Below are positions 1-59,189 of a DNA stretch of 64,000 bases, piece by piece (within the stretch, counting starts at the first letter, position 1; each line of letters begins with the position of its first letter). Below the pieces are notes generated by a model. That model searched no databases, was not told where the DNA came from, and saw nothing but the letters and a program-made list of their open reading frames with translations. The translations under genes were made by a program, and so were the position numbers. Source of the DNA: a virus. The stretch covers positions 1-64,000 of IMG/VR virus record IMGVR_UViG_3300025141_000042; one strand, given 5' to 3'.

Positions 1-3000
1 GCGCGATTTACCAGAATCCTTACCAGATCTCCCTCATCGTCATCTGCGATTGTCGCAATATCGTCATTCATTTTCTGTTGAAAGGGATCTTCTTGATCGC
101 CAATGTCCCCAATGTCAATCGGTGCCTTGCCCATCTTTTCCTTGGCGCGCCTTACGAGATTCCTTACTATCTTTTGTTCGCCGGGATCTGCAAGTGTCGC
201 AATGTCGTCGTCGATTTTCTGTTGAAAGGGATCTTCTTGATCACCCTCGCCTAAAACTTTTGAAATTTCTTCTTTGATAATTTGTGCTAATTGCTTTTTT
301 TCCTTACATGCCTTTGCAGCACCGAAGAGACCTTGCTGTGCTTTCGATACTGATTTTTCCTGCAACGGTTCTTCAATCACTTCCTCGCCTTCTGGCCCAG
401 GTGATTCTTTTTCTGCCTCGTATGCTGCGGTTGTAGGTTCCGGCACAGTAGCGGGCAATTCTTTCTCAAACTTATCAAAATATAATTTCAAGTTGGCAAT
501 GAGATATTCATAAAACATTGACTGATCTTTATCATTATCCAAGACAGCATATGCATCAACGATTTGTTTTCCAATGTTGTGGAATGTCTTTTCTGCGACA
601 TTCCTACCGGTCATATCCATGCCGGGGAGGGTTTCAAATTTTTCCTCTTCAGGTGTCTTTGCAAATGAGTCATCGCCAACATCAATGAATTTACCAGCAT
701 CATCATCGCCAACATCGATATCGAGTTCTTGGAGTTTGTCAGCTTCGTCATCTGCTTCATCAGCCAATTCAATCGGTGCCAGTGTTCTGACTGTTTGGTT
801 AATAACATGACTACGATAAGATTTTCGTTGCTGATCATCGGTTGTTAAAGTTTTGAAATCTGATTTTATAACCGGAACAATCCTTTTCAAGAGAGTTGCC
901 AAGACATTGATGCCCGTATTTCTGTGCGGCGGCATATCTGACTTTTCTTGGATTATTAGTTGTCGGATTGTTTCTCGCAAATGTACTTCCATCTGATAGC
1001 GGTCAAGCATTGCTTTCTGACTCTCGTTGATGTAAATAACACCAGATGTCTTCGAGGTGGACTCATCGAGTCTCGCAGTTTGACTTCCCCTTACTTTCTT
1101 TCGGATAAACTCTCTTAGTTTCATTTCTGCTATCACTTCTTCTCGCATGATCATTCCCTCTTTGCTTTTCGGTTCTCTCTTGCCGGCGCCTAATTGGACT
1201 GCTGCGCTGGTCATAGCAGATAGTTCTTGTAATCCTTTCGTCAGATTCCACACTTCGTCTTTTTCTTCAGGTGTCAACTCGGCAGGGAGCAGTTCTTTAA
1301 ATTTCTCATCATCATCTGCATCCATCGCCGGTTTCATATCACCGGTAGAACTCATACCACCGGCCTGAGGCGGTATCGGTCTTATTTCAACATCTACACC
1401 ATTTTCTTTTCCAACTCGGATGGCACGTTGATACCTCCCGTCCATGATGTCTTTTTCTCCCAGGACTAGAATTACTTTGTCGCCTTCTTCTACAAACTCT
1501 TTCAGAAAACTGTAAGTTGCTTGCACAGGACTCCGTGCTTCTGGAAATAGCGATGTACTTACGAAGGCATGTGCCATATCATCTAAATTGTAACGCCGCA
1601 GATAAATGTCCCAAATAGACTTGGATGCTTCGGGGGTGACCCCTTTATGTTCTACGGGTGAGATTAAAATAAAGATCTCATCGGCACTTCCATAGACTTC
1701 TTGAACTGCACCTAGATGCCCTGTGTGCGGAGGTTTGAATTTTCCAGGAAATACAGTTACGATACGATTAAACTCTTCTTTCTCTTCTTCAAGTTTCTTG
1801 ATCGGGGGCACGTTTCCTCTACCAAACTTAAATAACCCTAAGATTTGATTCGCTGGCGCGAAATTGCCGGTAAATTTATACGTTGTGCCATCATAGTCAA
1901 ATACAAACCCTTCTGCGGCAGAACCCACATTTTCTATAGATTTAATTTTTTTCATCTGCTGACTGAGGATCCGCATTGCTTCGTCACTGCCCGAACCTTT
2001 GATCGCGGCAATTGCAGATGCAACTTCAGACCTCAGTCTCTTTATTTCGTTGGGATTATCTAGAATAAAAGCACTTTTTAGTCCTCGTAATGCTTCCACC
2101 GCGAAATCGTGTACGACATCTTCCAACGGGTAAACTATCTTCTTTAAGATGTTTCCTGAATTTTTAACCATGTGTCGTGCTGTGCTTCGCGAAGTTTCAT
2201 CATCTTTCGGAATTTTGGACATTATTTTTGTTAAACTAAAACCTTTTTGGCCAAGGATTCTCGGCACCAGCATATCCCTTGCTTCTTCATTTATATCCGG
2301 GAGATTGGAGAGAACGAGCTCGGAAATTTCCTTTACAATAAAATCGCCGATTGTGTTGTTGTTTGACATCCCAGATTGACGCATAATGTCGGATAGTCTT
2401 TGCGTTGCTTCTTCTGTTGCCTCTTTATTTGTGAATTTTTCTAAATTCCTGATTGCGTTAACTTGTACTCCAAACTTATCACTTGCATCTTCTCTCTGTG
2501 CTCTGACCAGCGCGCCTTCTAGAGTTGCTAGTGTCTCATCATTTTGATATGGCGCCGCATCCCCAGTCTCTTTGTCTAAATTAAGATGACCAACCCGATG
2601 AATGACCAGATTCTTAGTATCATAATTTATAATATTCGGATTCCGAGGGTCCATGATCTCCGCATTATAGAAAATATTCGCATCGGGTCCAAAGATATCA
2701 ATTTGAGATTCAAGGGGGAGAGTTTGAACGGCATCTTCAAAAGCAGCAAAACCTTCTACGAAAGCTTTCTCTAAATTGCCACGACCTGAGAATTTCTGTG
2801 CTAATTCCTCAGCACTCATACCGCCGGACTTTAGATTACCTTTGTTTCTCGCTGCTTTTGCTCTCTTATCGCGGACACTATAAGAAACAAATAGATTTTG
2901 CCCATCTGTCTTCTCTGTTCCGACCAACTCGCCTTCAGAAGCTTTATTAAAGATATCCGTCATTTGACCGAAAGTCAAATCTAGGTTATCATAAAGGTGA

Positions 3001-3026
3001 TTCATATGTCCTGCAACGCCGCCCAT
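1..3026 (-). CDS. Ligase-like / NMNAT-like nucleotidyltransferase fusion, C-terminus cut by window edge
   Basis: The frame is open from the ATG at 3026 to the window start (at least 1008 residues). Residues 39-42 read KTDG inside GTEKTDGQNLF, followed by ARNKGNLKSGG and later NAEIMD. This is the pattern of the adenylylation domain of ATP-dependent DNA/RNA ligases (motif I KxDG). About residue 424-437 reads VFPGKFKPPHTGHL, the nucleotide-binding HxGH-type motif of the NMNAT/cytidylyltransferase superfamily. The C-terminal part is acidic, contains LREFIRKK, LRETIRQLI and LAQIIKEEI segments, and carries a 48-residue tandem repeat (DQEDPFQQK...DDIAT). The fusion suggests nucleotide transfer, possibly nucleic-acid or NAD-related, but the substrate is unknown. 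It begins immediately after the stop of the coiled-coil gene upstream. Confidence 0.75.
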   Translation of the reverse strand, partial: MGGVAGHMNHLYDNLDLTFGQMTDIFNKASEGELVGTEKTDGQNLFVSYSVRDKRAKAARNKGNLKSGGMSAEELAQKFSGRGNLEKAFVEGFAAFEDAVQTLPLESQIDIFGPDANIFYNAEIMDPRNPNIINYDTKNLVIHRVGHLNLDKETGDAAPYQNDETLATLEGALVRAQREDASDKFGVQVNAIRNLEKFTNKEATEEATQRLSDIMRQSGMSNNNTIGDFIVKEISELVLSNLPDINEEARDMLVPRILGQKGFSLTKIMSKIPKDDETSRSTARHMVKNSGNILKKIVYPLEDVVHDFAVEALRGLKSAFILDNPNEIKRLRSEVASAIAAIKGSGSDEAMRILSQQMKKIKSIENVGSAAEGFVFDYDGTTYKFTGNFAPANQILGLFKFGRGNVPPIKKLEEEKEEFNRIVTVFPGKFKPPHTGHLGAVQEVYGSADEIFILISPVEHKGVTPEASKSIWDIYLRRYNLDDMAHAFVSTSLFPEARSPVQATYSFLKEFVEEGDKVILVLGEKDIMDGRYQRAIRVGKENGVDVEIRPIPPQAGGMSSTGDMKPAMDADDDEKFKELLPAELTPEEKDEVWNLTKGLQELSAMTSAAVQLGAGKREPKSKEGMIMREEVIAEMKLREFIRKKVRGSQTARLDESTSKTSGVIYINESQKAMLDRYQMEVHLRETIRQLIIQEKSDMPPHRNTGINVLATLLKRIVPVIKSDFKTLTTDDQQRKSYRSHVINQTVRTLAPIELADEADDEADKLQELDIDVGDDDAGKFIDVGDDSFAKTPEEEKFETLPGMDMTGRNVAEKTFHNIGKQIVDAYAVLDNDKDQSMFYEYLIANLKLYFDKFEKELPATVPEPTTAAYEAEKESPGPEGEEVIEEPLQEKSVSKAQQGLFGAAKACKEKKQLAQIIKEEISKVLGEGDQEDPFQQKIDDDIATLADPGEQKIVRNLVRRAKEKMGKAPIDIGDIGDQEDPFQQKMNDDIATIADDDEGDLVRILVNR
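5..245 (-). repeat. Tandem coding repeat, 144-bp period
   Basis: The segments around 51-101 and 195-245 are nearly identical (tgtcgcaat...attttctgttgaaagggatc) and lie 144 bp, or 48 codons, apart. Both encode DQEDPFQQK-x-DDIAT in the acidic C-terminal region of the fusion protein. More copies could lie left of the window. Confidence 0.75.
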
Positions 3027-3278
3027 TTATTTGCCCTTTTCCTCTTCTAGAATTGTTAATTTTTCTTCTAGAATATTAACCCTTTCTTGTAATCTTCTAA
3101 CATGTCTTCTTACTTCTCTCAGATGTTCTTGCGCAAGTTCTATCTTGCGTGAATCGGATTGAGTTGAGGGTCTAAGACCCCCCAATGCTTCTTTGAGCGA
3201 TTGTAAATAACTATCTACACTAGGAGATTGTACTGATTCTCCCATCATAAATCTTTTTGTTACTTTGTGGAAATCCAT
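3027..3278 (-). CDS. Small coiled-coil protein
   Basis: This 83-residue protein has a C-terminal half of regular heptads (HLREVRRHVRRLQERVNILE), predicting a coiled coil. The N-terminal half is polar. Its stop abuts the ATG of the large fusion gene and its start overlaps the stop of the next gene upstream, so it belongs to the same transcription unit. No family was recognised; a small structural or scaffolding role would fit but is inference. Confidence 0.7.
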   Translation of the reverse strand: MDFHKVTKRFMMGESVQSPSVDSYLQSLKEALGGLRPSTQSDSRKIELAQEHLREVRRHVRRLQERVNILEEKLTILEEEKGK

Positions 3279-3601
3279 TATTCTCCACCCTCAGACTCAT
3301 CGTCGATGACTGGACTTGGAGCACTCTTCTTAGAAAAGAAGGAACTAAATGTTTCGGTTGTCTTTTCGACAGATTCCTCGACAGACTCTTTAACTTGATC
3401 GAGTTTTTCCTCTGCTGCCTCTTCTGCCTCTTTTGCTTTGGTCTCTACTTTCTTGGCAGCACGAGTTACACGACTCTTTGCTTTCTTTGCAACTGCTTTA
3501 GCATCTGCTTCGGCACTCATAATTGCTGCTTTGGCCTTCTTTGCCATGCTCGCCAATTTACGTGCTAATGCTCTCTTCTTTCGTTGTTTTGGACTAGTCA
3601 T
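3278..3601 (-). CDS. Basic Ala/Lys-rich N-terminus, acidic C-terminus protein
   Basis: The 107-residue protein is chosen to start at MTSPKQRKK (3601) because AAGGAG lies 10 nt upstream; an in-frame ATG at 3637 is an alternative. Residues 5-50 are rich in Ala and Lys (KKAKAAI, KAVAKKAKSR), like histone-H1-type or DNA-condensing tails. The second half is a Glu-rich helix ending SPVIDDESEGGE. Internal virion proteins can have such charge segregation, but no family was recognised. Confidence 0.65.
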   Translation of the reverse strand: MTSPKQRKKRALARKLASMAKKAKAAIMSAEADAKAVAKKAKSRVTRAAKKVETKAKEAEEAAEEKLDQVKESVEESVEKTTETFSSFFSKKSAPSPVIDDESEGGE

Positions 3602-3615
3602 TTGCTGTCTTCTCC

Positions 3616-4503
3616 TTATTGTGGGGGTGTGGGCCAATCTTGAGGATGGCGGTTTGATTTTCGGTCCGGCCGGTTCACCAGTTCCAGCCCGCTAGGGAGG
3701 TTCTGAATAAGAGCATCTGTTATTTTCTTAGCACTATTCCTCAACCCTAACTTTCCTATATTTGGAACTGCTTGAAGATGATTGTATATTTCTTTTTGGT
3801 CTTTCATCGCCCCCGCCTGCGCCAATTTTTTAAATAGATTTTTTAAATTTTCAACTGCGGTAGAAATCTTCATCCTTCCACCGGCCGGATCACGCGCATC
3901 ACTTACCACCATCCCTGGATCTAGATCATTATCCTGCATCATGCTCTCCATTGGACGGAGCAGATTCGCCTGGAAGAAATTCATTAGTTTCTCATTGTCG
4001 AGATTAGCAAGTTTAGGTTCTAGATTTTTATTAAATGTGCTAATCCTTTCACCATATTGACTTTTCTCAATCTTTGCTATATTTTCTTTGTAATTCTGAT
4101 TCTGTTCATCCGATTGGGGCGAATCTGTAGCACTGCTCACTTCCGTGCCGGTTACTTTTGAGGAATCAATAGCATCATTCATAGATTTGACGATATCCTT
4201 GAAGATTTGTTCTTCTTTGTCGATACCGGATCTGTGCAGCAGCATTAAGGTTTGGTTTGCGAACTGTTCTAACTTTTCTGCTTGACTCTTTAGGACATCC
4301 TGCGCATTGTCCGCCTGCCGGGATCCGCGTCGATCTGGGTATTTTCTCTTTAAGTACGCAAGTTTTTCTTCGGCATCTCTGACCTCTGGGTTTTTCATTA
4401 GATCGCTGAGACCGCTGAAAAAATTTTCTTCGATTTCTCCACCGGAAAATTGGTCAGTCAACCTTTCAAATAAAAGTTTATTTTTTGTATCATGAAACTT
4501 CAC
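3616..4503 (-). CDS. Hypothetical protein, probable virion-associated
   Basis: The likely start is the GTG at 4503, which overlaps the TGA of the upstream peptidase gene (GTGA). An ATG at 4620 would bury the frame deep in that gene. The product (about 295 residues) starts VKFHDTKNKLLFERL and is mostly helical and polar, with no membrane segment. LLFERL near the N-terminus resembles the tag of other proteins here, but weakly. No domain recognised. Confidence 0.65.
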   Translation of the reverse strand: MKFHDTKNKLLFERLTDQFSGGEIEENFFSGLSDLMKNPEVRDAEEKLAYLKRKYPDRRGSRQADNAQDVLKSQAEKLEQFANQTLMLLHRSGIDKEEQIFKDIVKSMNDAIDSSKVTGTEVSSATDSPQSDEQNQNYKENIAKIEKSQYGERISTFNKNLEPKLANLDNEKLMNFFQANLLRPMESMMQDNDLDPGMVVSDARDPAGGRMKISTAVENLKNLFKKLAQAGAMKDQKEIYNHLQAVPNIGKLGLRNSAKKITDALIQNLPSGLELVNRPDRKSNRHPQDWPTPPQ

Positions 4504-4892
4504 TTTCGATTTCTCCTGGAATCTTCCCAATCTCTCAGCAGCATGCACCCTTCCAGATATGCTTCCTCTTCCATCTTTCTTAGATGCTCGTTTTCTTGAG
4601 CATACCCTTCGCCAACACAACCTAATTTGTCAAACTCTCCTCTGCAATTCTGACAGTGGTGTACAAGTTCGTGAGACACCGATCTTAACACATCTTTCGG
4701 ATGTCTTTTAGAGATATAGACAGTTATAGATTTATTCTCCGGATCATAAAATGCTGTTTTTCCTAGGGGTTCCTCGGCATTCTTTTCATCTGCTCGTAAA
4801 AACAATTTTACAGGTTCAGAAATTGCCAACTTCTTTTTCGCATATGGAAAAAACTCTCTAATTAGATTTTTTATAACGCTATTGCTCTTCAT
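4500..4892 (-). CDS. Small zincin metallopeptidase-like protein
   Basis: In this 130-residue protein residues 74-78 are HELVH, the HExxH zinc-binding and catalytic motif of gluzincin/SprT-like peptidases. It is followed by HCQNCRGEF and a conserved-looking GEGYAQENE segment that could supply the third ligand. The N-terminus MKSNSVIKNLIREFF contains an IRE tripeptide like the packaged-protein tags in this window. No Shine-Dalgarno is visible; the octamer CTACTTAC ends 6 nt before the ATG, so the message may be leaderless. Confidence 0.75.
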   Translation of the reverse strand: MKSNSVIKNLIREFFPYAKKKLAISEPVKLFLRADEKNAEEPLGKTAFYDPENKSITVYISKRHPKDVLRSVSHELVHHCQNCRGEFDKLGCVGEGYAQENEHLRKMEEEAYLEGCMLLRDWEDSRRNRK

Positions 4893-5804: not shown

Positions 5805-6917
5805 TTACACACCCGATGGAGCACTTTTGCCTACTTTCGGGTCAATTGTCTTCATACCCTTTGCCTTATGTTTGTTTTTTCCCTTCACAGTTAATCTCAT
5901 CATCTTCCCAAAACTCTTCTTTGCTGCCTTTTGATAAGGTTCTTCTTCGTTAACCTTCTCGCTCTCTGAGACCGGTCCTGCTGCATTTCCTGAAGAAGTC
6001 GCAGCAGGCGTATAGAACCACTCGTTTTCGTCCGTTCCTGCCCAACTGACGTGCTCTGAGGGCACTTCTTTGCTCACGACGATGCTGCCTTCGCCCCCGT
6101 GCTCCTGAGCATAGGATTTGGTGAGGGAAACCCAGTCTCCTGGTCTTAGAATCTTTGATGCTTTTGGATTTATTCCTCTGTATATCTTCACAGTCTTTGC
6201 CCCGAAATAAGGAATTGGTCTTCCCCACTTCCCATTGAACTTTTTATAGATTACATTGAGCAGGTTTTCTGGATCTGTATGTTTTGCCCGAAGCAATCTT
6301 TGTTCTTCGCCCTCGTTCATTCTTACCGCGTCGTGCAATATGGAGTCAGCGGTTTCGAGGAGTGTTGTTAATTTCTCTTCAAAGGGATCTTTTGCCTCAT
6401 TAAAAATCTTGCTGTGATTCTGCTCTGCTTTTGATGTGTCTATTTGAGGTCCATTGGAATAATAAATGGAGTCTAGATATTCTACTCCGTGATTATCGTC
6501 TGCTGATTTTTTTACATCAACGAAGTCGCTGCCCTTGCCGTCATAGAACTCTTTCCATACATTCTGAGCTGCTTGACTCACTTGTCCCTTATGGGGACTG
6601 GGCATCAGTCCGTTTCTTCCGGCATGTTGTATGGCAATTCGATACAGTGTCGGTCCATACCCCTTTTCTGCCCAGATTTCTTCAATCTTGAATACCTTTT
6701 GGACACCTTCCCAACCAAATCGAATCACTCCTTTGATAAATGGTTCTATCTTATCTCCATCTTCTATCTTGTCTTCTATCTTATCTTCTATCTTATTCTC
6801 TAGATCATATAAGATAATGTATGAGCCATCAATATAAAGTCCCAATTTTGAGATGTCTTCGATTGCTGCTTCTGAGATACAGGAAACTTGTTTTTTTATC
6901 GTAATCTTAATCTTCAT
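5805..6917 (-). CDS. ADP-ribosyltransferase candidate with GNAT-like N-terminal region (Alt-like effector)
   Basis: The start is taken at MKIKITIKK (6917) because two other proteins here begin MIKITIKP and MIKIKISKK; ATG 6938 is an alternative. Numbered from this start, KIYRG (Arg247), SLT (Ser264) and ENE (Glu297/Glu299) form the R-S-ExE signature of arginine-specific mono-ADP-ribosyltransferases. Residues around 86-125 (GPTLYRIAIQHAGRNGL...VSQAAQNVW) resemble an acetyltransferase-like domain seen in phage internal proteins. CISE|AA at residues 13-18 fits an (I/L)xE prohead-protease site. By analogy with T4 Alt, it may modify host proteins after injection. A short KIED repeat lies near residue 43. 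Confidence 0.7.
   Translation of the reverse strand: MKIKITIKKQVSCISEAAIEDISKLGLYIDGSYIILYDLENKIEDKIEDKIEDGDKIEPFIKGVIRFGWEGVQKVFKIEEIWAEKGYGPTLYRIAIQHAGRNGLMPSPHKGQVSQAAQNVWKEFYDGKGSDFVDVKKSADDNHGVEYLDSIYYSNGPQIDTSKAEQNHSKIFNEAKDPFEEKLTTLLETADSILHDAVRMNEGEEQRLLRAKHTDPENLLNVIYKKFNGKWGRPIPYFGAKTVKIYRGINPKASKILRPGDWVSLTKSYAQEHGGEGSIVVSKEVPSEHVSWAGTDENEWFYTPAATSSGNAAGPVSESEKVNEEEPYQKAAKKSFGKMMRLTVKGKNKHKAKGMKTIDPKVGKSAPSGV
6755..6800 (-). repeat. Short tandem repeat encoding KIED units
   Basis: About three imperfect 12-15-bp units (tcttctatcttatct) encode ENKIEDKIEDKIEDGDKIE in the ADP-ribosyltransferase candidate. It is a simple in-frame expansion, likely a flexible charged linker. Confidence 0.6.
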
Positions 6918-6947
6918 CTTATTTCTTCTTATTCTCAATAATAATGT

Positions 6948-7742
6948 TTATTCTTTCTTAGCTGGCATAAAAGGCCTTAAAGAGCCCCACTTATTAACTC
7001 GCAGGGCAGGGCGAACTAGTTCAGATGCCACAAAATTAACACCGCCGACCAATGGTCCAATCCACCCTAACCACTTTTTAACGTCTGTAACATGAGCCAC
7101 ATTTCCAATAAAGTCCTCTCCAAAGAATTTTGTAACACTCCCTATTAGAAATTCTTTAACTTGATTAATTACTTCTTCTTTCGCCATATCTCTCGGATTT
7201 GTGGCACTAGCTAGCGAGTCGATGAGAGCACCGATTTTCTTTTGAATCCATATTAACCCAACAGCCATAGAGGTACCGGGTATCACTTTCTTCCAACTGC
7301 TAGGACTTTTAAAGAAAGAGTCAAGCATCGCCTTTAGCTTTTGAAGTAGTTTGTTGGCAGCTGCACCAACTTTAGGTAAGCTACTGGCAACTTCAAGTGC
7401 TTTTTTTAGTTTTTTGGTATTTTCGTTTATTAGCCTGCCAATTATTGTATTCCATTTATCGATGGAATCACCCGTCTCGTCTATTAACATATTATAAAAA
7501 GCTTGCAAAAGATTTTTCATGTTGCCAGCGGCCGTTTTTAAATTCTCAGCTACGCTCTTTATGAAGTTCTCTAAGAGCATATGCTCTTCTAATATATGTC
7601 GCCTTAACTCCTCGCTGATTATGGTATCGCCCGATTCGTTAACCGGAAGGCTAATGCCCAATACTCTCGCGACATATATGTGGTTCTCACATATTTGGCT
7701 TTCTTCCATATACACTCGCCAATTTTCCATCAATAGTTTCAT
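6948..7742 (-). CDS. Tagged internal-protein candidate with amphipathic/hydrophobic segments
   Basis: This 264-residue protein begins MKLLMENWRVYMEESQ, the first of the MKLLxENWRxYMxE tags in this window; YMEE|S fits an (L/I/M)xE cleavage site. The rest is helical and contains two hydrophobic stretches, SMAVGLIWIQ and WLGWIGPLVGGVNFVASEL, which could insert into membranes. A role as an ejected or membrane-active internal virion protein is inferred. No enzyme motif is visible. Confidence 0.7.
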   Translation of the reverse strand: MKLLMENWRVYMEESQICENHIYVARVLGISLPVNESGDTIISEELRRHILEEHMLLENFIKSVAENLKTAAGNMKNLLQAFYNMLIDETGDSIDKWNTIIGRLINENTKKLKKALEVASSLPKVGAAANKLLQKLKAMLDSFFKSPSSWKKVIPGTSMAVGLIWIQKKIGALIDSLASATNPRDMAKEEVINQVKEFLIGSVTKFFGEDFIGNVAHVTDVKKWLGWIGPLVGGVNFVASELVRPALRVNKWGSLRPFMPAKKE

Positions 7743-8018: not shown

Positions 8019-8501
8019 CTATTTCGTCCTACTGCCATGTTGTGTTATTCTCCTCGTTTTGACCTGGTTCAATATATCCATAGTCTTGATGTTATATTGG
8101 TCTGAATTTAAGTCTTTTGAGCTATTCCCAGACTGGACAAGTTCTAACCACTTTTCCCAGACACCTTCTTCTGCTTTTTCTTTGATATGGTTTCGAGTTA
8201 TAATGATTGGAATATCTTTTCCCAAAAGTTTTGCCGCCATCACCCTGTGGTGTCCATCACCGTGCTTGAATGTGCCGTCCAGAAACACTGTGATTTCTAC
8301 AGGCTCAGAAAGGTCAACCGTTTTTGCCCATGCTAGTTTTTCCTCATCACTCTTTTTGAAAAATTCTTTCCAGTGTGGCTCTGTTCTGTATTCACCCATA
8401 TGTGATTCTAGGTGTTCAGCAGGAAAATGAATATGTTGCCCTTTGGGAACATATTCTTCCACTTCAATAAACTTCCTGAAATTTTCCATTAGGAGTTTCA
8501 T
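8019..8501 (-). CDS. ParB/Srx-fold protein with N-terminal packaging-like tag
   Basis: The N-terminus MKLLMENFRKFIEVEE matches the tag family. Residues 82-86 are DGHHR followed by VMAAKLLG, the signature of the ParB/sulfiredoxin nucleotide-binding fold (known members bind CTP or ATP; some are nucleases). EPVEITVF precedes it as the expected beta strand. At 160 residues it is little more than the tag plus one domain. The ATG directly follows an 18-codon upstream ORF (TAAATG), suggesting translational coupling. Biochemical activity is not deducible. Confidence 0.75.
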   Translation of the reverse strand: MKLLMENFRKFIEVEEYVPKGQHIHFPAEHLESHMGEYRTEPHWKEFFKKSDEEKLAWAKTVDLSEPVEITVFLDGTFKHGDGHHRVMAAKLLGKDIPIIITRNHIKEKAEEGVWEKWLELVQSGNSSKDLNSDQYNIKTMDILNQVKTRRITQHGSRTK

Positions 8502-8625: not shown

Positions 8626-9219
8626 TTATTTTTTTAATCTTATTATCCATGCCGGCACACTCGCACCAGACTTCTTCGCCAAGAAAACACGATGGTTGCC
8701 GTCAGCAACTTCGAGTCTGCCATCGGGTTCTTCCACTGCCGTGACTGGGGGCAGGTTCGCAAAATCAATGCCGTCTGGGTCTTTATCGCTATCGCGAAAA
8801 TACCTGTCTATCTTTCCCGACTTATAATCTTGATATTTCTGTTCCCTGTCTCTCATGTTGTCGCCTGAAACAAAAAGTTCGTCAGCATTGACTACTTCTG
8901 CTGTTTTTGGCGCATCGTACTTCTCTAGGTTCAATATAACATTTCTAATTTCCGAAAAAGGCGGAATTTCAGTCTTGTGATGTTCGACTGCTTCTCGCGC
9001 CCAACCTAAATCAAGCAGTTCTGACGCTAGGATCTGAACATTTTCAGGATTCTTGTACTTTGCATCAAAATCTTCCAACTCTCTAGTTGATATCATCTCG
9101 TTGAGATGCTTTCGCCATTCTTCACTAGATGATTCTTTTGCTTTTTCAATATCGATTGCATCCATTTTAGAATCGCCTTCGATTAAATATTGTCGCCATT
9201 GTTCTATCAGAAGTTTCAT
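8626..9219 (-). CDS. Second tagged ParB/Srx-fold protein
   Basis: This 197-residue protein begins MKLLIEQWRQYLIEGDSK, where YLIE|G fits the (L/I/M)xE site, and ends with ADGNHRVFLAKKSGASVP (DGNHR at 173-177), the ParB/Srx signature at the extreme C-terminus. The middle is helical and includes SEWRKHLNEM. It overlaps the preceding 645-residue gene by 4 nt. It is a paralogue in design, not in close sequence, of the 8019-8501 protein. Confidence 0.72.
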   Translation of the reverse strand: MKLLIEQWRQYLIEGDSKMDAIDIEKAKESSSEEWRKHLNEMISTRELEDFDAKYKNPENVQILASELLDLGWAREAVEHHKTEIPPFSEIRNVILNLEKYDAPKTAEVVNADELFVSGDNMRDREQKYQDYKSGKIDRYFRDSDKDPDGIDFANLPPVTAVEEPDGRLEVADGNHRVFLAKKSGASVPAWIIRLKK

Positions 9220-11153
9220 TTCTTTTTGCTCTCGATAATGATGTTTATTTTTCTCTTTTTGGATTCTGTTACTTTCTTTTCTGGTTCTTTCTCTTGAACC
9301 TTATTGATTGCGCCGATAATCTCTCTTATGTTCTTTTTGAACCTTTCTGGGTATTCGTTCATTAGTTTCATGACACGATAGTTCATTTCCGCTTCTCGGT
9401 CGTTCTGGTCATAGTTGGTGTTTTTGACAGTAAGTTTAACCCCCGGTCCTCCTCCAGAAGGACCGGATTTAGCAGAAGCACCCAGACTCGGTATTTGCCC
9501 AGGATCATACACATTCCCTATGTGGAGATCTCGTGCCGGATCAATGACCAGTTGAGCGAACTCAGATTCACCCCCTTTCTCTATCCCAGGAAGTTCTAAT
9601 TGCTTCTTGAGACTTTTTTGTATGTCTATCGCTGTACGATTTATGACATCAACAACTGGAGAATAATACGGGCGAGACAATCTTTGGGATGTTAAGATTA
9701 TCTTTGTTCCTGGCACAATAAAATCATATTCCAACTCTTCACCAACATAGGTTACAGCAACATTGTCCCATTTCCAAAGGCCTTTTTCCTCTTCTAATTG
9801 ATCGCTTACTTTGTCGATGAATGAGGGGGGAAGTATATCTCGATCTATGAACTCCCTTCTAATAAGTTCGGTGAGTTCAGCATTCTTATCATCAATCTCT
9901 ACTTCAACATCGTTAGCAAATGATTCATATTCCTCTGGTGAGCTTATTCCCATATCGGGTCTTATTCCGACTTTTAGATACATACTTTGAGTACCGTGAC
10001 CATCACTCCTCCAATCCCAATGAACCATGTTTTCAGCATCGTAGGTATCAAAACTTAAGTATATGTCGTCTTTGATAGCATTATATACCATATCGCCAAT
10101 CTCGTCAATTCTTTTGAATATAACATCGTCGTCGAAGTTCCCGTGAACCATAAAGCGAGTAGTAGCATCAGCATATATCGACTGGATTTCATCATCGATT
10201 TGTGCTCCTATCTCCGTCATATCCATTCGACGATTTGCCTCTGCTGTTATTTCTGTTACTTGCTCTTCCCACCCATTATCTGGGAGATTATTGCTTAGGT
10301 GATCCTCTATCTGCCTCATGATTCTATTCATTTTTTCTGTTGAGGTGGTTTCTTCCATTTGAGCATCCGCTCCATCATACCCAACTTCGTTATCTTCGGC
10401 ATCATAGAATTCATCAAAGGATCCTCCGGCATTTCCAACCCAGGCAACTTTTGATAAAGGATCATTATCATCAGCTGATGGATCGTAGGGTTTCCTAGTT
10501 TTATCTATTACAAAATAGAAAGCTTTTCCTTCCTTCGTGTAAGAATCAAAATAGTTTTGTGTGTCTTTGGCGGAAATACACCACTGGGTTCCTACACCAT
10601 AATAACAAGAGGCATGTGTCGATAGGGGGCGAATGACCATAAACTCTTCGTCGTCATAAATCACGTCAGACTCTGATTTTGCTTGTTTTGATGCTTTTCC
10701 TTTATCCTCTTTCTCTCTTTTTGCTCTCAGCATCGCCACCGTCGCCGTCTCAATATCGGATTCTAGTGTTTCAATATCTGTCCAAGAATTTAGATCTTTT
10801 GATAGTGGTTCACCATTGGCATCCCTCCAGGCTGCTGCCTTTTTAGAGAGGTTGTGGAAATCAAGTATCATATCGCCCATTCTAAGCACTTTACGAGCCA
10901 TAACTCTGGCAACAGAATCACGACTTAAACTTTGATCATCAAAACCGCCCTCCATATATGCTATCTCCATCTGTTTCATTGCCCAGTTGATATATTTGTG
11001 ATTGCCGGATGGATCTCTGTCTTCTAGAGCATCAACTATCTTAGATAGGATGGGATCGTCCTTGTATTTTGCCTTCATTGCTTTTAGATCCGCCATCGCC
11101 TCTTCTAGGCAATCAGATACGGTATGATTTGGTTTGATCGTAATCTTAATCAC
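9216..11153 (-). CDS. Large hypothetical protein with GTQWCIS motif, probable internal protein
   Basis: The 645-residue product starts MIKITIKPNHTVSDCLEEAM; CLEE|A fits a prohead-protease site and the first eight residues match two other N-termini here. Around residues 170-215, RPLSTHASCYYGVGTQWCIS followed by KAFYFVIDK forms a compact motif with Cys and Trp that looks conserved and enzyme-like. The rest is acidic and the C-terminus is Lys-rich (ESKKRKINIIIESKKK). It overlaps genes at both ends, placing it in the run of tagged genes. I could not assign a function. Confidence 0.65.
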   Translation of the reverse strand: MIKITIKPNHTVSDCLEEAMADLKAMKAKYKDDPILSKIVDALEDRDPSGNHKYINWAMKQMEIAYMEGGFDDQSLSRDSVARVMARKVLRMGDMILDFHNLSKKAAAWRDANGEPLSKDLNSWTDIETLESDIETATVAMLRAKREKEDKGKASKQAKSESDVIYDDEEFMVIRPLSTHASCYYGVGTQWCISAKDTQNYFDSYTKEGKAFYFVIDKTRKPYDPSADDNDPLSKVAWVGNAGGSFDEFYDAEDNEVGYDGADAQMEETTSTEKMNRIMRQIEDHLSNNLPDNGWEEQVTEITAEANRRMDMTEIGAQIDDEIQSIYADATTRFMVHGNFDDDVIFKRIDEIGDMVYNAIKDDIYLSFDTYDAENMVHWDWRSDGHGTQSMYLKVGIRPDMGISSPEEYESFANDVEVEIDDKNAELTELIRREFIDRDILPPSFIDKVSDQLEEEKGLWKWDNVAVTYVGEELEYDFIVPGTKIILTSQRLSRPYYSPVVDVINRTAIDIQKSLKKQLELPGIEKGGESEFAQLVIDPARDLHIGNVYDPGQIPSLGASAKSGPSGGGPGVKLTVKNTNYDQNDREAEMNYRVMKLMNEYPERFKKNIREIIGAINKVQEKEPEKKVTESKKRKINIIIESKKK

Positions 11154-12330
11154 TCTTAATTCTCCCTTCCAGATGTTTAACTAATTCAGAAACACTCTTA
11201 AGTTTGTTTTGCTTCATATACGAGGTGAACCTCTGCAAATAAGGTCGCAAGTGTGGTCTCGACCTTGCTCCTAGGAATTCCGTTGCGAAGACACTGGGTG
11301 CCTCATAATTATACCGCGTGAGGCGCTCTATGATGTCATCAATGTCTTGTTCTGTGACTATTATCTGTCCCTCCAGAAACTTTCGCTTTATTTCCTTCTT
11401 CATGGGATCTTCGTAAGTTGGTGGTTCTGTCTCATGAAATCCCGGCGTCTTTGACCACTCGTATAAATCAGTCTTAACAGCAATCATATCATCTCTGCGC
11501 GGATAACCTTCCGAGGAGAGTTCGCCCTGCTCCAACATGCCAAGAACCTCCGCAAGACCTGGGAGGAGCGAGTAAGTTGTCGCATTTCGCAGTTTAACGT
11601 GGAAAGCATCGCGCTCTTCTCCCCTAAAGGTAGTCTTTGCAGGATCCACGCCGGCTTCTTTTCTTATCTTCTCAAGTTCGTCATAGGTTACTGCCGATAA
11701 TTGCTTGTTCATGTAAAACTCGTTTTCTTTCTCTTCTGTGGGTATTATTTTAAGCGGGATACCGTGAGACTGTGCGAACTCGCTTACCTCTTTTAGATCT
11801 CGGAGATCTGGATACCTAATGCTCTGGTTGGGGATGTATTCGTATTTCGTCATTTTCCCGGCACCGATGGCATCAATCATGCTATCCACATCAGTCGCCC
11901 TTCCTTTGAAGATGGGGAGATAGACAACAATCTCTTTAATATAGTCAGAGGCGCTCTCTATCCACGCTTCGTCTGTCACTATCCGGTCTTCCATCTCCGA
12001 TTTGCCACCGCTAGTCCTATCCCTCCAGTAATCAAGTGGGGTGCCGGCATACTTCTGACCCAGTTTCCTGCCGTCCAAAGTAAATCGCACCTTCCCATCC
12101 TTGGTTAGGGGATACCCTTCCTTGAAGGCGAGCGGGGATCTGGCTGTGGAGAGGAAGTAGAACTTCCCCTTGTTTCCAATTTCGTCTGAATCACTACCAA
12201 ACGTGCCAGAGGTCATAATACGATTGGTCTTGGCGATATCTGCCATCCTGCCCAGACTGGTACCGTGATAAACAATGTTGCTTATGCCTTCGGTCATATA
12301 TCTTCGCCAGCTTTCTAAAATAAGTTTCAT
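11146..12330 (-). CDS. PARP/ART-superfamily-like protein with packaging-like tag
   Basis: In this 394-residue protein the N-terminus MKLILESWRRYMTEGISN is a clear tag with YMTE|G. VYHGTSLGRM (residues 19-28), then FYFLSTARS (about 56-64) and SEMEDRI (about 112-118) give an H-Y-E arrangement like PARP, Tpt1 and related ADP-ribosyl transferases. The C-terminal 250 residues are helical and unrecognised. If active, it would be a second ADP-ribosylating or NAD-using effector beside the 5805-6917 gene. The call rests on short motifs. Confidence 0.55.
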   Translation of the reverse strand: MKLILESWRRYMTEGISNIVYHGTSLGRMADIAKTNRIMTSGTFGSDSDEIGNKGKFYFLSTARSPLAFKEGYPLTKDGKVRFTLDGRKLGQKYAGTPLDYWRDRTSGGKSEMEDRIVTDEAWIESASDYIKEIVVYLPIFKGRATDVDSMIDAIGAGKMTKYEYIPNQSIRYPDLRDLKEVSEFAQSHGIPLKIIPTEEKENEFYMNKQLSAVTYDELEKIRKEAGVDPAKTTFRGEERDAFHVKLRNATTYSLLPGLAEVLGMLEQGELSSEGYPRRDDMIAVKTDLYEWSKTPGFHETEPPTYEDPMKKEIKRKFLEGQIIVTEQDIDDIIERLTRYNYEAPSVFATEFLGARSRPHLRPYLQRFTSYMKQNKLKSVSELVKHLEGRIKSD

Positions 12331-25652: not shown

Positions 25653-26051
25653 TCACTGTTGTGTTACTATCACTGGTACCTCTGCCATTCCCATCTTCTG
25701 TGCTGCCAAGAAGCGATGGTGGCCATCCAATATATGAAAGAATGGTTCCGGCATGCCCGTCTTAGATGTTCCCTCATACTCTTCGTCGCCCTGTAATCTA
25801 GCAGTAACAACGGGTTTCTGTTGGCATACTTGTATAGGTTCAAAATGTCCGCTCTCGATTGCTTTAACCTTTGCCTGTATCCTGCTTTCACATTCAGCAC
25901 TCGGGCAATCATGCTCCTTGCCGTGACCCAACTCTTCAGTTGGGAGAATTTGCTGGATAGAGACATATGCAATATTCTCTTTTAAATATCCCCACGATTC
26001 CATTAATCGCTTGTTGATCATTTTGTTTCTTTTGTTGAAATGATTTTTCAC
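25653..26051 (-). CDS. ParB/Srx-fold protein with RLMESWGY cassette
   Basis: The GTG start at 26051 gives MKNHFNKRNKMINKRLMESW, the second tag type; KRLME|S fits an LxE site. The 132-residue protein then has SIQQILPTEEL and ends with ILDGHHRFLAAQKMG (DGHHR 109-113), the ParB/Srx nucleotide-binding signature. It is the third protein here combining a packaging-like tag with this fold. Biochemical function unknown. Confidence 0.7.
   Translation of the reverse strand: MKNHFNKRNKMINKRLMESWGYLKENIAYVSIQQILPTEELGHGKEHDCPSAECESRIQAKVKAIESGHFEPIQVCQQKPVVTARLQGDEEYEGTSKTGMPEPFFHILDGHHRFLAAQKMGMAEVPVIVTQQ
25987..26051 (-). repeat. RLMESWGY cassette DNA repeat, copy 1
   Basis: A 65-bp segment encoding the N-terminal cassette of the 25653-26051 gene recurs at 26373-26437 and 27399-27464, with a truncated copy at 26443-26467. 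Similarity drops sharply after the Tyr codon. Confidence 0.7.
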
Positions 26052-26054
26052 AGA

Positions 26055-26462
26055 TTATCCCTGCTCCAAACCCAAATATTTTCTGATCCCGTTTCTAATA
26101 TTTTCTACTTGCTCACCGATATCAAAACCTGCACCGAGTGCTTTAAAGTTACTGCTGTTTGTTTTCATTATTTTTTTAACAAAGGCATCTTCGTTGTTGG
26201 TCATATTGTCCCTCCAAGTTTTCAATTTCTTGGGAGTTGGTTTTTCCCACACAACGAGCTCTTCCAACTCCTCTGCCATGTTTTCGGCGGTCCATGGGTG
26301 TGTAATGTTGGGTTCTGGTGGGAAATCCAAATCCGGAATTTGCTCCTGCTCTTCGGTAAGTTTAGTGTTTCCGTATCCCCACGATTCCATTAGTCGCTTG
26401 TTGATGCTTTCGTTTCTTTCGTTGAAGTGTTTTTTCAAAAGAATATCCCCCCACGATTCCAT
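26055..26462 (-). CDS. Hypothetical protein with two RLMESWG tags in tandem
   Basis: The ATG at 26462 gives MESWGDILLKKHFNERNESI, then NKRLMESWGYGNTK. A TTG at 26438 would instead give MKKHFNERN, matching the relatives. The upstream copy of the tag looks like a remnant of recombination. The remaining 100 residues (EEQEQIPDLDFPPEPNITHP...) are acidic and helical with no recognised domain. Confidence 0.6.
   Translation of the reverse strand: MESWGDILLKKHFNERNESINKRLMESWGYGNTKLTEEQEQIPDLDFPPEPNITHPWTAENMAEELEELVVWEKPTPKKLKTWRDNMTNNEDAFVKKIMKTNSSNFKALGAGFDIGEQVENIRNGIRKYLGLEQG
26373..26437 (-). repeat. RLMESWGY cassette DNA repeat, copy 2
   Basis: Close relative of 25987-26051, encoding KKHFNERNESINKRLMESWG. 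A truncated third copy (25 bp, 26443-26467) lies directly upstream. Confidence 0.7.
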
Positions 26463-26495
26463 TAATCTCGCCTCGCTTATACTGTGTTCTTGTCA

Positions 26496-27464
26496 TTATT
26501 GGTTGCTGTATATCTCATCGTCATCGGTGTGTTCGGATTCAAGACTGTCTAGAAATTCCCCGATGGAAGCATGATTTTCCCGTTCTTTGTGGAAAGTGCT
26601 CCAATCTTCGTAACCGGCGTTTTTGACATCGTCGGCAAATCCCTTTAGGTCTTTCAGCTGATCAGCCCTGCCCTTTCCGGTGATAGCAAGGTTCTTCCAA
26701 TACTCCTCTTGTTCGGGAGTTCTCCCGCGGCTCAGATATTTCAGATATTTCTTTTCCAGGTGTTTGGCCACAGCGTCGGAAGGGTGCTTCTCAGTATTTC
26801 CTTCTTCAAACCTATAATTGTAAAGTGGATCCTCGTCAGGGTTTCTATTTTGGCCGTAGAATTCTTCTGCTGCTTTGTCGATTTTATCATTTTCTAGTTT
26901 ATCAAGATATGCTTCATATTCCGCCTTGCGCTGGTCTTTGTCGCGCCATGTTTGATATGCGCTTTCACCTGCCTGATGGTCATCACCCCTCGCAGGTGGT
27001 GCGTTGTCCCGCGCCCAGGTATCAAAAGATGGGGCATTCTCACTGATTAACCCTTCAAGCGTCTCAGGAGCAGCAGTCGAAGACTTCTCGGAGTTGGGGG
27101 ATAGGCCCCGCGTTGCGCCGAAGTATTCCTCTACTGCTTCTTCTTTCGCAGATTGGAACCGATTGTACAGATCCTTCGATCCACCACTGGCCGTAGATGG
27201 TTTCAGCAGTTTATTTAAGAGGACCTCCGCATCAGCTTGGGTACCTGGTTCACCGTCTTCTAAAACTTTCACCATTCCGGCCACAACGGCGGCCGCATCA
27301 GTTTTAACGACATCGCCTGCGTCTGTTTTTCGATTATCATCACGATAATAACCATTATATCCCACTTTATAAGAATCTTCCGGAGTGAGGGGCCTCGTAT
27401 ATCCCCACGATTCCATTAGTCGCTTGTTAAGGTCTTTGCTTCTTTTGCTAAGATGTTTTTTCAT
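26496..27464 (-). CDS. Large tagged hypothetical protein
   Basis: This 322-residue protein starts MKKHLSKRSKDLNKRLMESW, followed by GYTRPLTPEDSYKVGYNGYY. AGGAGGG precedes the ATG. The body is polar, Asp/Lys/Glu-rich and helical (RDKDQRKAEYEAYLDKLEND), and ends SEHTDDDEIYSNQ. It resembles internal virion proteins in composition. A late-type octamer lies 46 nt upstream. Confidence 0.62.
   Translation of the reverse strand: MKKHLSKRSKDLNKRLMESWGYTRPLTPEDSYKVGYNGYYRDDNRKTDAGDVVKTDAAAVVAGMVKVLEDGEPGTQADAEVLLNKLLKPSTASGGSKDLYNRFQSAKEEAVEEYFGATRGLSPNSEKSSTAAPETLEGLISENAPSFDTWARDNAPPARGDDHQAGESAYQTWRDKDQRKAEYEAYLDKLENDKIDKAAEEFYGQNRNPDEDPLYNYRFEEGNTEKHPSDAVAKHLEKKYLKYLSRGRTPEQEEYWKNLAITGKGRADQLKDLKGFADDVKNAGYEDWSTFHKERENHASIGEFLDSLESEHTDDDEIYSNQ
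27399..27464 (-). repeat. RLMESWGY cassette DNA repeat, copy 4
   Basis: The farthest copy of the cassette, at the start of the 26496-27464 gene. The last 30 bp (ATCCCCACGATTCCATTAGT and following) are nearly identical to the other copies. Confidence 0.7.
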
Positions 27465-49895: not shown

Positions 49896-51467
49896 TTACT
49901 CGTCAATTATCGCGTGACTTGTTGTGATAAGAGTACCGATTGCCGATACAGAATTCTGAAGTGCACACCGGGTTACTTTTACTGGATCGATGATGCCATT
50001 TTCCTTGAGATCTACAATCTCGCCTGTCGAAAAATTAAAACCTGTACCCTCTTCGGTAGACAATGCCTGGTCTAAGACAACATCTGGTTTCATTCCTGCG
50101 TTTCTGGCCATCTGCTTAATCGGTGCCTGGACGGCATCAGTAACGATCTTTACGCCAAGTTCTTGATCTCGGTTTTCAGCATCTATCTCCACTTCCTTCG
50201 ATGCCAAGAGGAGTGCCATGCCGCCGCCGGAGATCATTCCCTCCTGTTGTGCCGACTTGACTGCCTCAAGGGCATCTTCGATGCGATGCTTTTTCTCAAT
50301 CATCTCCACTTCCGTATTGCCGCCAACATTGATAATAGCAATGCCGCTGGCCAAGCGAGTGATACGTTCTTGGATCCTTTCACAGACCTGCATATTGTCA
50401 GTCTGCTCAAACTGAGACTTGAGAAGTTCAACACGCTCGGAGACCTGCTCTTCGCTTCCGTTACCTCCGACAACAGTTGTCAGTGTCTTAGTTGCCTCAA
50501 TTGATTTAGCATTACCCAAGTTAGTCAGTTTAACGTCTCTCAACTTCAAGCCCGAGGAGCGGGAAATGAATGTGGCGCCGACACTGATTGCTAAGTCTTC
50601 CAGGATGTTTCGTCTCTCCTCGCCATAGCGGGGGCCCTTGATAGCAGCAACTTTCATAGTTCCTCGTGCTGCGTTCATTATCATTGCCGCGAGTGCCTGA
50701 CCTTCTATCTCCTCGGCGACAACCACTAGTGGGCGACCATCTCTCGCGATCAGTTCTAGGACCGGTAAAATGTCTTCTACGAATTCTATCTTTTCATCGG
50801 TAACAAGGAATAGGGGATCGTTGTATTTCAGCACTCCCCTGCGCTCGTCGGTCACAAACGCGCCGGCAGCATAACCGTTATCGAAACGAAAACCTTCCAC
50901 GAGATCCAGACTTGTATCTAATGATTTGCCATCCTCAATTGTAATCGAACCATCTTTGCCGATCATATCGATTGCCGTAGAGATAAGTTTGCCGATGGTC
51001 CTGTCTCCGTTCGCTGAGATGGTAGCAATGTCCTCAATATCCGACAGTTTTGTTACCTTCTTTGAAATGTTGCGAAGATTGGAGACAATCACAGAGGTTG
51101 CCTTGTCAATGCCACGTTTCAGTTCGACAGGAGAGGCACCGGCAACGATGTGCTTCTGTGCCTCTAGAAAAATAGCACGAGCAATAACAATTGCAGTAGT
51201 GGTTCCATCGCCAGCACTATTGTTGGTCTCCTCGCTTGCTTGTTTGATTATTTGTGCGCCAACATTCTCAAACGGGTCGTCAAAGTCTACGAACCGTGCG
51301 ACAGTTACACCGTCTTTAGTGATAATTGGAGAACCACTCTTCGGGTGGAGAATCACATTCCTCCCTTTGGGGCCCATGGTGGCAGAAACATTGTCGGCCA
51401 ACTTGTTTATGCCATTTAAAATTTTCTGATTTAAACCTTTTTGCGTATCAAGGTATTGTTTCGACAT
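49896..51467 (-). CDS. groEL: GroEL-type chaperonin
   Basis: In this 523-residue protein MGPKGRNVIL, GDGTTTAIVIARAI (the ATPase loop), EVEMIEKKHRIEDALEAVKS and EGMISGGGMALL match group I chaperonins closely, including the catalytic Asp in IEDAL. The C-terminus ends IIDE without the GGM tail. Length is about 25 residues shorter than E. coli GroEL. No groES is visible, so it may use the host's co-chaperonin or work alone, as some phage GroELs do. Confidence 0.95.
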   Translation of the reverse strand: MSKQYLDTQKGLNQKILNGINKLADNVSATMGPKGRNVILHPKSGSPIITKDGVTVARFVDFDDPFENVGAQIIKQASEETNNSAGDGTTTAIVIARAIFLEAQKHIVAGASPVELKRGIDKATSVIVSNLRNISKKVTKLSDIEDIATISANGDRTIGKLISTAIDMIGKDGSITIEDGKSLDTSLDLVEGFRFDNGYAAGAFVTDERRGVLKYNDPLFLVTDEKIEFVEDILPVLELIARDGRPLVVVAEEIEGQALAAMIMNAARGTMKVAAIKGPRYGEERRNILEDLAISVGATFISRSSGLKLRDVKLTNLGNAKSIEATKTLTTVVGGNGSEEQVSERVELLKSQFEQTDNMQVCERIQERITRLASGIAIINVGGNTEVEMIEKKHRIEDALEAVKSAQQEGMISGGGMALLLASKEVEIDAENRDQELGVKIVTDAVQAPIKQMARNAGMKPDVVLDQALSTEEGTGFNFSTGEIVDLKENGIIDPVKVTRCALQNSVSAIGTLITTSHAIIDE

Positions 51468-58661: not shown

Positions 58662-59189
58662 TTATTTTTCGCTAAAAGAAGTATTGGTTGCATGAAATGA
58701 ATCGATAATGTCCCTAAACTCATCCATCCCTGACCGATTAGACTTCTTCTTCGTCAACTTCTTAACCAACTCGGAACTGCTCTGCACTTTGCGGCCGCCG
58801 ATGGCAAACACCATTTCGATGCCGACTTCATCACACACTTCTCGCTCGCGTTGACATATCGACTCCTCATCGATGGTGCCGCCGTTGGCAAAATAATCTG
58901 GTTCTACTTTTCGCAGAGTGTTCGCAACGGTGCCATCGGCATCATCAGCAACAACAACACGGGCGACTTTCTTGATGCTCTTGAGGAGTTCAATTCGCTC
59001 CTCAAGAGTCATGAAATAGTATCCCTTTTTATCCAAGAGCCACTGGTCAGTATTCAGGATGACCACGACTCGACCATACTTGGCGGCGGCACGGATAAGT
59101 TGGAGGTGTCCGATGTGAATCGGATCAAACCCCCCACTAATAGCAACCAGTTTATTTTTTCTCTTCTTCTTACCGGTCATTTGGATCAC
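58662..59189 (-). CDS. Cytidylyltransferase-like nucleotidyltransferase
   Basis: The 175-residue product has AISGGFDPIHIGHLQLIRAA (GGFDPIHIGH 19-28), the HxGH ATP/CTP-binding motif, and a later FAIGGRKVQSSSELVKKL typical of the ISSS element. Possible roles are NMN or sugar-phosphate adenylyl/cytidylyl transfer. A GTG at 59189 or an ATG (MTGKK, 59180) are alternative starts; the former overlaps the dnaE stop. Confidence 0.8.
   Translation of the reverse strand: MIQMTGKKKRKNKLVAISGGFDPIHIGHLQLIRAAAKYGRVVVILNTDQWLLDKKGYYFMTLEERIELLKSIKKVARVVVADDADGTVANTLRKVEPDYFANGGTIDEESICQREREVCDEVGIEMVFAIGGRKVQSSSELVKKLTKKKSNRSGMDEFRDIIDSFHATNTSFSEK

Follow-up and report, generated by a model that had tools for sequence, protein, structure and literature searches.

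One of the closest known systems to the locus described here is found in the T4-like cyanophages S-PM2, P-RSM6 and S-PRM1, where a gene for a DUF6267 (PF19782) protein immediately precedes one for a cytidyltransferase. DUF6267 is a family of unknown function, and the literature searched contained no paper on it. Proteomes of S-SCSM1, S-SZBM1 and S-CREM2 virions contain NMNAT-like or cytidylyltransferase proteins, and S-CBWM1 is cited alongside (PMC9602691, PMC9146016, PMC10665884); according to the authors, virion proteomes may include carry-over from the lysate (PMC10665884, PMC9602691). In T4, the internal proteins bear targeting propeptides of 10–19 residues, and the prohead protease gp21 cuts after L/I-X-E (PMC9026906).

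Open frame and relatives

The window, i.e. the whole stretch of DNA that was analysed, comprises 64,000 nucleotides of a viral record of 100,291 bp, which is itself a fragment. The frame under study starts with an ATG at position 3026 of the minus strand and remains open for 1008 codons to base 3, the end of the record. The contig also encodes a T4-type major capsid protein (phrog_138, 6e-72) and a tail sheath, which identifies the phage as a T4-like myovirus.

3..3026, minus strand: whole open frame, 1008 codons, C-terminus lost at the contig end (reading frame)
3027..3278, minus strand: 83-aa coiled-coil-like ORF upstream, also in relatives (sequence)

A 119-aa, Ala/Lys-rich, histone-H1-like ORF is located just upstream (3278-3637, minus strand), and similar ORFs precede the gene in relatives L004 and L032.

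A first scan returned 24 viral loci with 35–49% identity, and a profile scan at least 574 related viral stretches. Relatives are encoded in 574 of the 599 viral stretches that matched the motif pattern, indicating that the motif set is not due to chance. No relative was confirmed among 84,980 bacterial and archaeal genomes (18 pattern matches, 0 relatives) in a scan that was pattern-based and hence of limited reach. Each of 17 records checked contains a single copy of the gene. Apart from a cytidylyltransferase-class match near residue 430 that stays below threshold, the curated libraries give almost nothing. The family is real and widespread, with members so far in viruses only, and its probable ligase-like class is unannotated in the records examined.

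The ligase-like domain

A ligase-like N-terminal domain had been proposed in the sequence-only reading on the basis of KTDG at residues 39–42 and ARNKGNLKSGG at residues 59–69. Both are present, and E38-K39-T-D41-G42, R60-N61 and G68-G69 are conserved in relatives. Across 65 diverse sequences, the invariant positions include H7, H10, E38, K39, D41, G42, R60, E372, G373, F376, Y383 and K384, while E123 is kept in at least 90%. The KxDG of motif I is followed by motifs III, IV and V, in this order. Motif I, an Arg about 20 residues on, and motifs III, IV and V is the order found in covalent nucleotidyltransferases.

1815..3026, minus strand: ligase-like (KxDG) domain, residues 1–404 (motifs, model, fold matches)
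2901..2915, minus strand: EKTDG, residues 38–42, motif I, in which Lys39 is the predicted nucleotidyl acceptor (E, K, D and G invariant, 65 sequences)
2820..2849, minus strand: RNKGNLKSGG, residues 60–69, with the conserved Arg about 20 residues past motif I (conservation)
2643..2669, minus strand: YNAEIMDPR, residues 120–128, candidate motif III (E123 at least 90%)
1947..2543, minus strand: insert separating motifs IIIa and IV, mainly helical, residues ~162–360 (model secondary structure)
1899..1913, minus strand: EGFVF, residues 372–376, motif IV (E-G and F376 invariant)
1845..1880, minus strand: YKFTGNFAPANQ, residues 383–394, motif V with Lys384 (Y, K, T, G, F, A, P, N and Q invariant)

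The AlphaFold model of residues 2–404, whose numbering is that of the window protein minus one, has a pLDDT of 94.2 and a pTM of 0.90. In this model, one strand terminates at K39 and another begins at about residue 43, as in motif I. Each of the best 11 PDB fold matches is an RNA or DNA ligase, with T4 Rnl1 in the first place and a Palaeococcus RNA ligase, T4 Rnl2, the African swine fever virus ligase and an Aquifex ligase among the others. The scores are weak (E from 0.012, TM near 0.2), so the fold provides a ranking argument and not a strong score. The score is probably lowered by the helical insert of ~170–200 residues that separates motifs IIIa and IV. RNA ligases also appear among the viral-model fold matches. 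The proposed domain class is supported by the motif order and, at weak scores, by the lead of ligases in the ranking. The model, on which the reading had staked the fold and the place of Lys39, agrees in part: its fold resembles ligases, and this residue is at the strand end. A capping enzyme, also suggested there, was rejected because RNA ligases rank first.

Profile searches gave little. No family was assigned to the N-terminal domain in scans of Pfam, NCBIfam, PHROGs and PADLOC. The RNA_ligase PF09414/Rnl1/Rnl2 profile leaves the window protein unmatched and matches 3 of 24 relatives (best E=0.073, below the curated cut-off), and the ligase-domain profile returned only chance helical matches from PDB sequences. 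Residues 117–196 weakly resemble the gp63 family (phrog_562, E=0.056). The LigA-type NAD-specificity domain Ia was not recognised in the ~35 residues before motif I, and no ligase match came from Pfam or NCBIfam. The HMNH sequence at residues 7–10 (H-x-x-H), for which no role is known among ligases, does not vary within the family or the aligned DUF6267 sequences.

DUF6267 proteins resemble this domain in their length (~400 residues), in the order of their motifs (H-x-x-H-L, KxDG, EGFV and K) and in being placed immediately before, or fused with, an NMNAT/cytidylyltransferase domain; they differ in that the pair is usually encoded by two genes. The Pfam DUF6267 profile does not detect the window family. 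An alignment of the DUF6267 and window profiles is collinear over the full length and weak (P=0.016), and hhalign aligned only motifs IV–V between the window-family alignment A3 and a set of four DUF6267 sequences. The model of the S-PM2 protein matches the fold of the window domain with E=2.8e-4. Judged from sequence and models, DUF6267 is probably homologous to the ligase-like domain. The DUF6267 part in S-PM2 is p138; p140 was discarded as a counterpart, having no matching motifs. ORF90 of S-SCSM1, which adjoins the NMNAT-like virion protein of that phage, is not DUF6267 by Pfam.

The NMNAT-class domain

The motif noted earlier near residue 430 corresponds to VFPGKFKPPHTGHL at residues 426–439 and contains the HxGH signature (H434-x-G-H437).

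1212..1766, minus strand: NMNAT/NadD/CoaD-class nucleotidyltransferase domain, residues 421–605 (profile, model, fold matches)
1716..1727, minus strand: HTGH, residues 434–437, HxGH motif (H437 in 46 of 46 sequences, H434 in 42 of 46)
1332..1352, minus strand: SSTGDMK, residues 559–565, counterpart of (I)SxTxxR, one residue longer and with K in place of R (alignment)

The final Arg of (I)SxTxxR is kept in 43 of the 46 sequences, with SSTGDMK in its place in the window. The profile of these sequences matches M. jannaschii NMNAT (MJ0541) with E=1.3e-7. The domain model (pLDDT 90.8) matched NadD, CoaD and NMNAT structures at a probability of 1.00. The assignment of the second domain to the NMNAT/NadD/CoaD-class adenylyltransferases is thus supported by the HxGH motif, the MJ0541 profile match and the fold matches. 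All matches to the NMNAT equivalog are under the curated NCBIfam/Pfam cut-offs, and, on the model, the substrate class could equally be NadD- or CoaD-like. A stand-alone cytidylyltransferase-like protein of the same broad class (PF01467, 1.1e-15) is encoded at 58662-59189 (minus strand), and L032 has a similar ORF near the gene.

In most loci a single ORF holds both domains, in either order; otherwise they are encoded by adjacent genes, as in L028. The ligase domain comes first in the marine relatives and second in another group and in Mel-JY01. Given their co-occurrence in both orders, the two domains probably work together.

The C-terminal part

Downstream of the NMNAT-class domain, the frame continues with repeats, an acidic TGIN module, and a truncated end.

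939..1142, minus strand: LxE/LRxxIR repeats, residues 629–696, with LREFIR 637, LDE655, INE668, LRETIR 683 and IQE694 (sequence)
417..917, minus strand: TGIN module, residues ~704–870, with its own ORF in most relatives but fused in the window protein (comparison with relatives)
3..371, minus strand: residues 886–1008, with LxE sites LQE890 and LGE927 and two GDQEDPFQQK repeat copies, cut by the contig end (sequence)

The LRxxIR segments recorded before are present (LREFIR 637–642, LRETIR 683–688), with a diverged third, LAQIIK, at 913. Their suggested place as part of the enzyme was not borne out: they are LxE-flanked repeats that precede the third module, and most relatives carry them on a neighbouring ORF of its own.

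Predicted protease sites at the module borders

The ligase domain starts at [LIM]-x-E|GG or Met-GG. E|GG with L, I, M or V at P3 is found in 48 of 52 distinct non-Met junctions before the conserved GG, while 12 further junctions start with Met and 4, including those of L027 and L071, fit neither pattern. Several E|GG junctions are located deep inside chains of 700–1500 residues, with P1=E and P3=L/I/M/V kept there, so the pattern cannot be explained by a leader effect.

1767..1814, minus strand: inter-domain linker with LEE414, predicted [LIM]xE protease site, residues 405–420 (linker counts)

Of 49 distinct linkers to the NMNAT domain, 44 contain [LIM]xE, and shuffled sequences give 20.1 ± 3.3, an excess of 7 SD. 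Upstream of the TGIN module, where the motif flanks the LRxxIR repeats, the count is 37 of 37 against 18.4 ± 2.9 in shuffles. All counts in this section, those of the junctions and capsid proteins included, come from related, non-independent sequences; the motif is short, and shuffling does not correct for kinship.

The major capsid proteins of these phages carry LxE in their N-terminal part in 17 of 17 cases examined, with LxE|A/G/S at residues 50–70 in 16. The density of the motif is 6.5 per 100 in the first 65 residues and 1.1 beyond. A gene for a gp21-type protease (Peptidase_S77) is present in 18 of 21 records, i.e. in nearly all larger relatives. The 100-kb contig of the window, a fragment, is one of the three records in which it was not found.

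Polyprotein relatives and neighbouring genes

In L019, a frame of 1572 residues joins a metalloprotease homologue, the ligase domain, a stretch like window 9216-11153, DUF4116 repeats and the NMNAT domain, with LNEN, LNEGG and LTEN at the borders between the parts. In L096 (4133-9409), a chain of 1759 aa contains an AAA_33/zeta-toxin-like P-loop kinase domain, the NMNAT-class domain and the ligase-like domain.

4500..4892, minus strand: putative zinc metalloprotease (HELVHH), homologue fused into the L019 polyprotein (52% identity to L019; weak Peptidase_M91 match)
6948..7742, minus strand: gene with a capsid-targeting-like N-terminal tag, MKLLMENWRVYMEE (sequence)
8019..8501, minus strand: same capsid-targeting-like tag, MKLLMENFRKFIEVEE; ParB-like body by eye (sequence)
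8626..9219, minus strand: same capsid-targeting-like tag, MKLLIEQWRQYLIEG (sequence)
11146..12330, minus strand: same capsid-targeting-like tag, MKLILESWRRYMTEG (sequence)

The tag, MKLLxExWRxYLxE, is common to neighbouring genes with unrelated bodies. LxE occurs within the first ~20 residues in 8 of 13 genes of the cluster and in 15 of 90 elsewhere (Fisher p=0.0012). Many relatives have a predicted targeting leader that ends in L/I-x-E. The window protein starts with MGG, and neither a targeting leader nor a capsid-targeting sequence (CTS) was found in it; if it is packaged, the LxE/LRxxIR repeats would be the likeliest signal. The virion-detected cyanophage proteins correspond to the NMNAT-like part only, and their N-termini read MKSFLQFLKEA in S-SCSM1 and MKNFSSFLTEA in S-CREM2.

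Further features of the window were noted, most of them by eye. The ORFs at 5805-6938 and 11146-12330 (minus strand) contain possible ADP-ribosyltransferase-like motifs (YRG...SLT...ENEWFY; YHGTS); this identity is not claimed, as Pfam and PADLOC gave no support. Three consecutive ORFs at 25653-27464 (minus strand) have a common N-terminal stretch ending in LNKRLMESWGY or INKRLMESWGY, possibly a modular tag. The ORF at 49896-51467 (minus strand) has a GroEL-type chaperonin-like start, and the start of a 1144-aa ORF at 59186-62620 (minus strand) resembles DnaE/PHP-type DNA polymerase III alpha, which is unusual in a T4-like phage.

Proposed function and alternatives

The protease-site pattern at the module borders, and with it a likely head-packaged status, goes beyond the earlier reading. 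We lean towards a head-packaged polyprotein of RNA-repair and NAD enzymes that is cut during head maturation. The chain contains at least three modules: the ligase-like covalent nucleotidyltransferase, the NMNAT/NadD/CoaD-class adenylyltransferase and the acidic TGIN module. The T4-like myovirus would pack it into the prohead, where a protease of the T4 gp21 type would cut at [LIM]xE between modules. The freed enzymes would remain in the head and enter the cell alongside the DNA. There, the ligase-like enzyme may seal broken RNA, most likely tRNAs cleaved by host anticodon nucleases, while the NMNAT-like enzyme may replenish NAD, or a dinucleotide related to it, on which the host and injected NAD-consuming enzymes draw. 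Three observations favour RNA repair: the nearest folds are RNA ligases, L096 contains the P-loop kinase domain, and Pol-beta-like nucleotidyltransferases are encoded near two relatives (weak matches). Such nucleotidyltransferases act together with phage RNA ligases (PMC7824862). More tentatively, the capsid-maturation protease would dice a multi-enzyme chain in the prohead at borders written in the capsid's own L-x-E code, and the injected ligase and NMNAT would act as one unit, with the NMNAT-like part possibly remaking the NAD of the ligase.

The protein might instead be a bifunctional intracellular enzyme that is never packaged, with LxE as an ordinary feature of charged linkers. The missing CTS fits such an enzyme, as do the distance between the gene and the major capsid gene in most large marine records and the possible carry-over in virion proteomics (PMC10665884, PMC9602691). 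We nevertheless regard it as unlikely, given that the linker excess over shuffles is large, that P1 and P3 are kept even in domains embedded in a longer protein, that capsid proteins conserve the same motif and that unrelated neighbouring genes have a CTS-like tag in common. Even if the chain is packaged, its release could be due to the adjacent zincin-like metalloprotease. Its ORF at 4500-4892 and the homologue within the L019 polyprotein speak for this, and metallopeptidase processing is proposed for polyvalent proteins (PMC5512222). Since the junction motif is the known gp21 motif and also the capsid-protein motif of the same phages, we consider the metalloprotease an improbable substitute for the gp21-type enzyme.

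The two remaining alternatives concern the ligase-like domain itself, and we give both of them little credence. In one, it depends on NAD and releases NMN, which the NMNAT-like domain turns back into NAD. Such a cycle would account for the tie between the two domains in both orders, and the invariant H-x-x-H before motif I is otherwise without explanation, but there is no recognisable domain Ia in the short stretch before motif I, the nearest folds are ATP-dependent RNA ligases, and the NMNAT-like domain may have NadD- or CoaD-like specificity. In the other, the domain is catalytically dead and serves assembly. T4 gp63 has an additional tail-fibre role, a precedent which, together with the weak similarity of residues 117–196 to the gp63 family, points in this direction; the expected catalytic positions are, however, conserved across very diverged relatives.

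Comparison with known systems

On the polyprotein reading, a large family of aquatic phage proteins that lacks annotation would gain a likely enzyme class, as would DUF6267, though less firmly. The reading would also explain the recurrent NMNAT-like proteins in cyanophage virions, and the exact mature N-termini can be predicted from it. Should cleavage be real, the maturation protease has a second task, the processing of polyproteins for injected enzymes.

T4 RNA ligase 1 (gp63) and RNA ligase 2 have the motif order of the window domain and are its closest solved folds, with no significant sequence match. The window family differs from them in the large helical insert between motifs IIIa and IV, in the single conserved Lys of motif V and in the fused NMNAT-class domain. 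T4 Alt and the internal proteins IPI-III undergo L/I-x-E processing and have a short N-terminal targeting peptide, as predicted for many relatives and neighbours of the window gene; the enzymes are different, and the window system has several modules per chain. Polyvalent proteins (Iyer et al. 2017, PMC5512222) are multidomain phage proteins that are predicted to be packaged and injected, with a linked metalloprotease. The window family likewise combines several effector domains in one phage protein, whereas a text search of that paper gave no NMNAT and ligases only in passing, and no account of prohead-protease sites at domain borders was found there. Head-packaged multi-domain phage effectors are already known, and the window family would be a variant of these with ligase-like and NMNAT modules.
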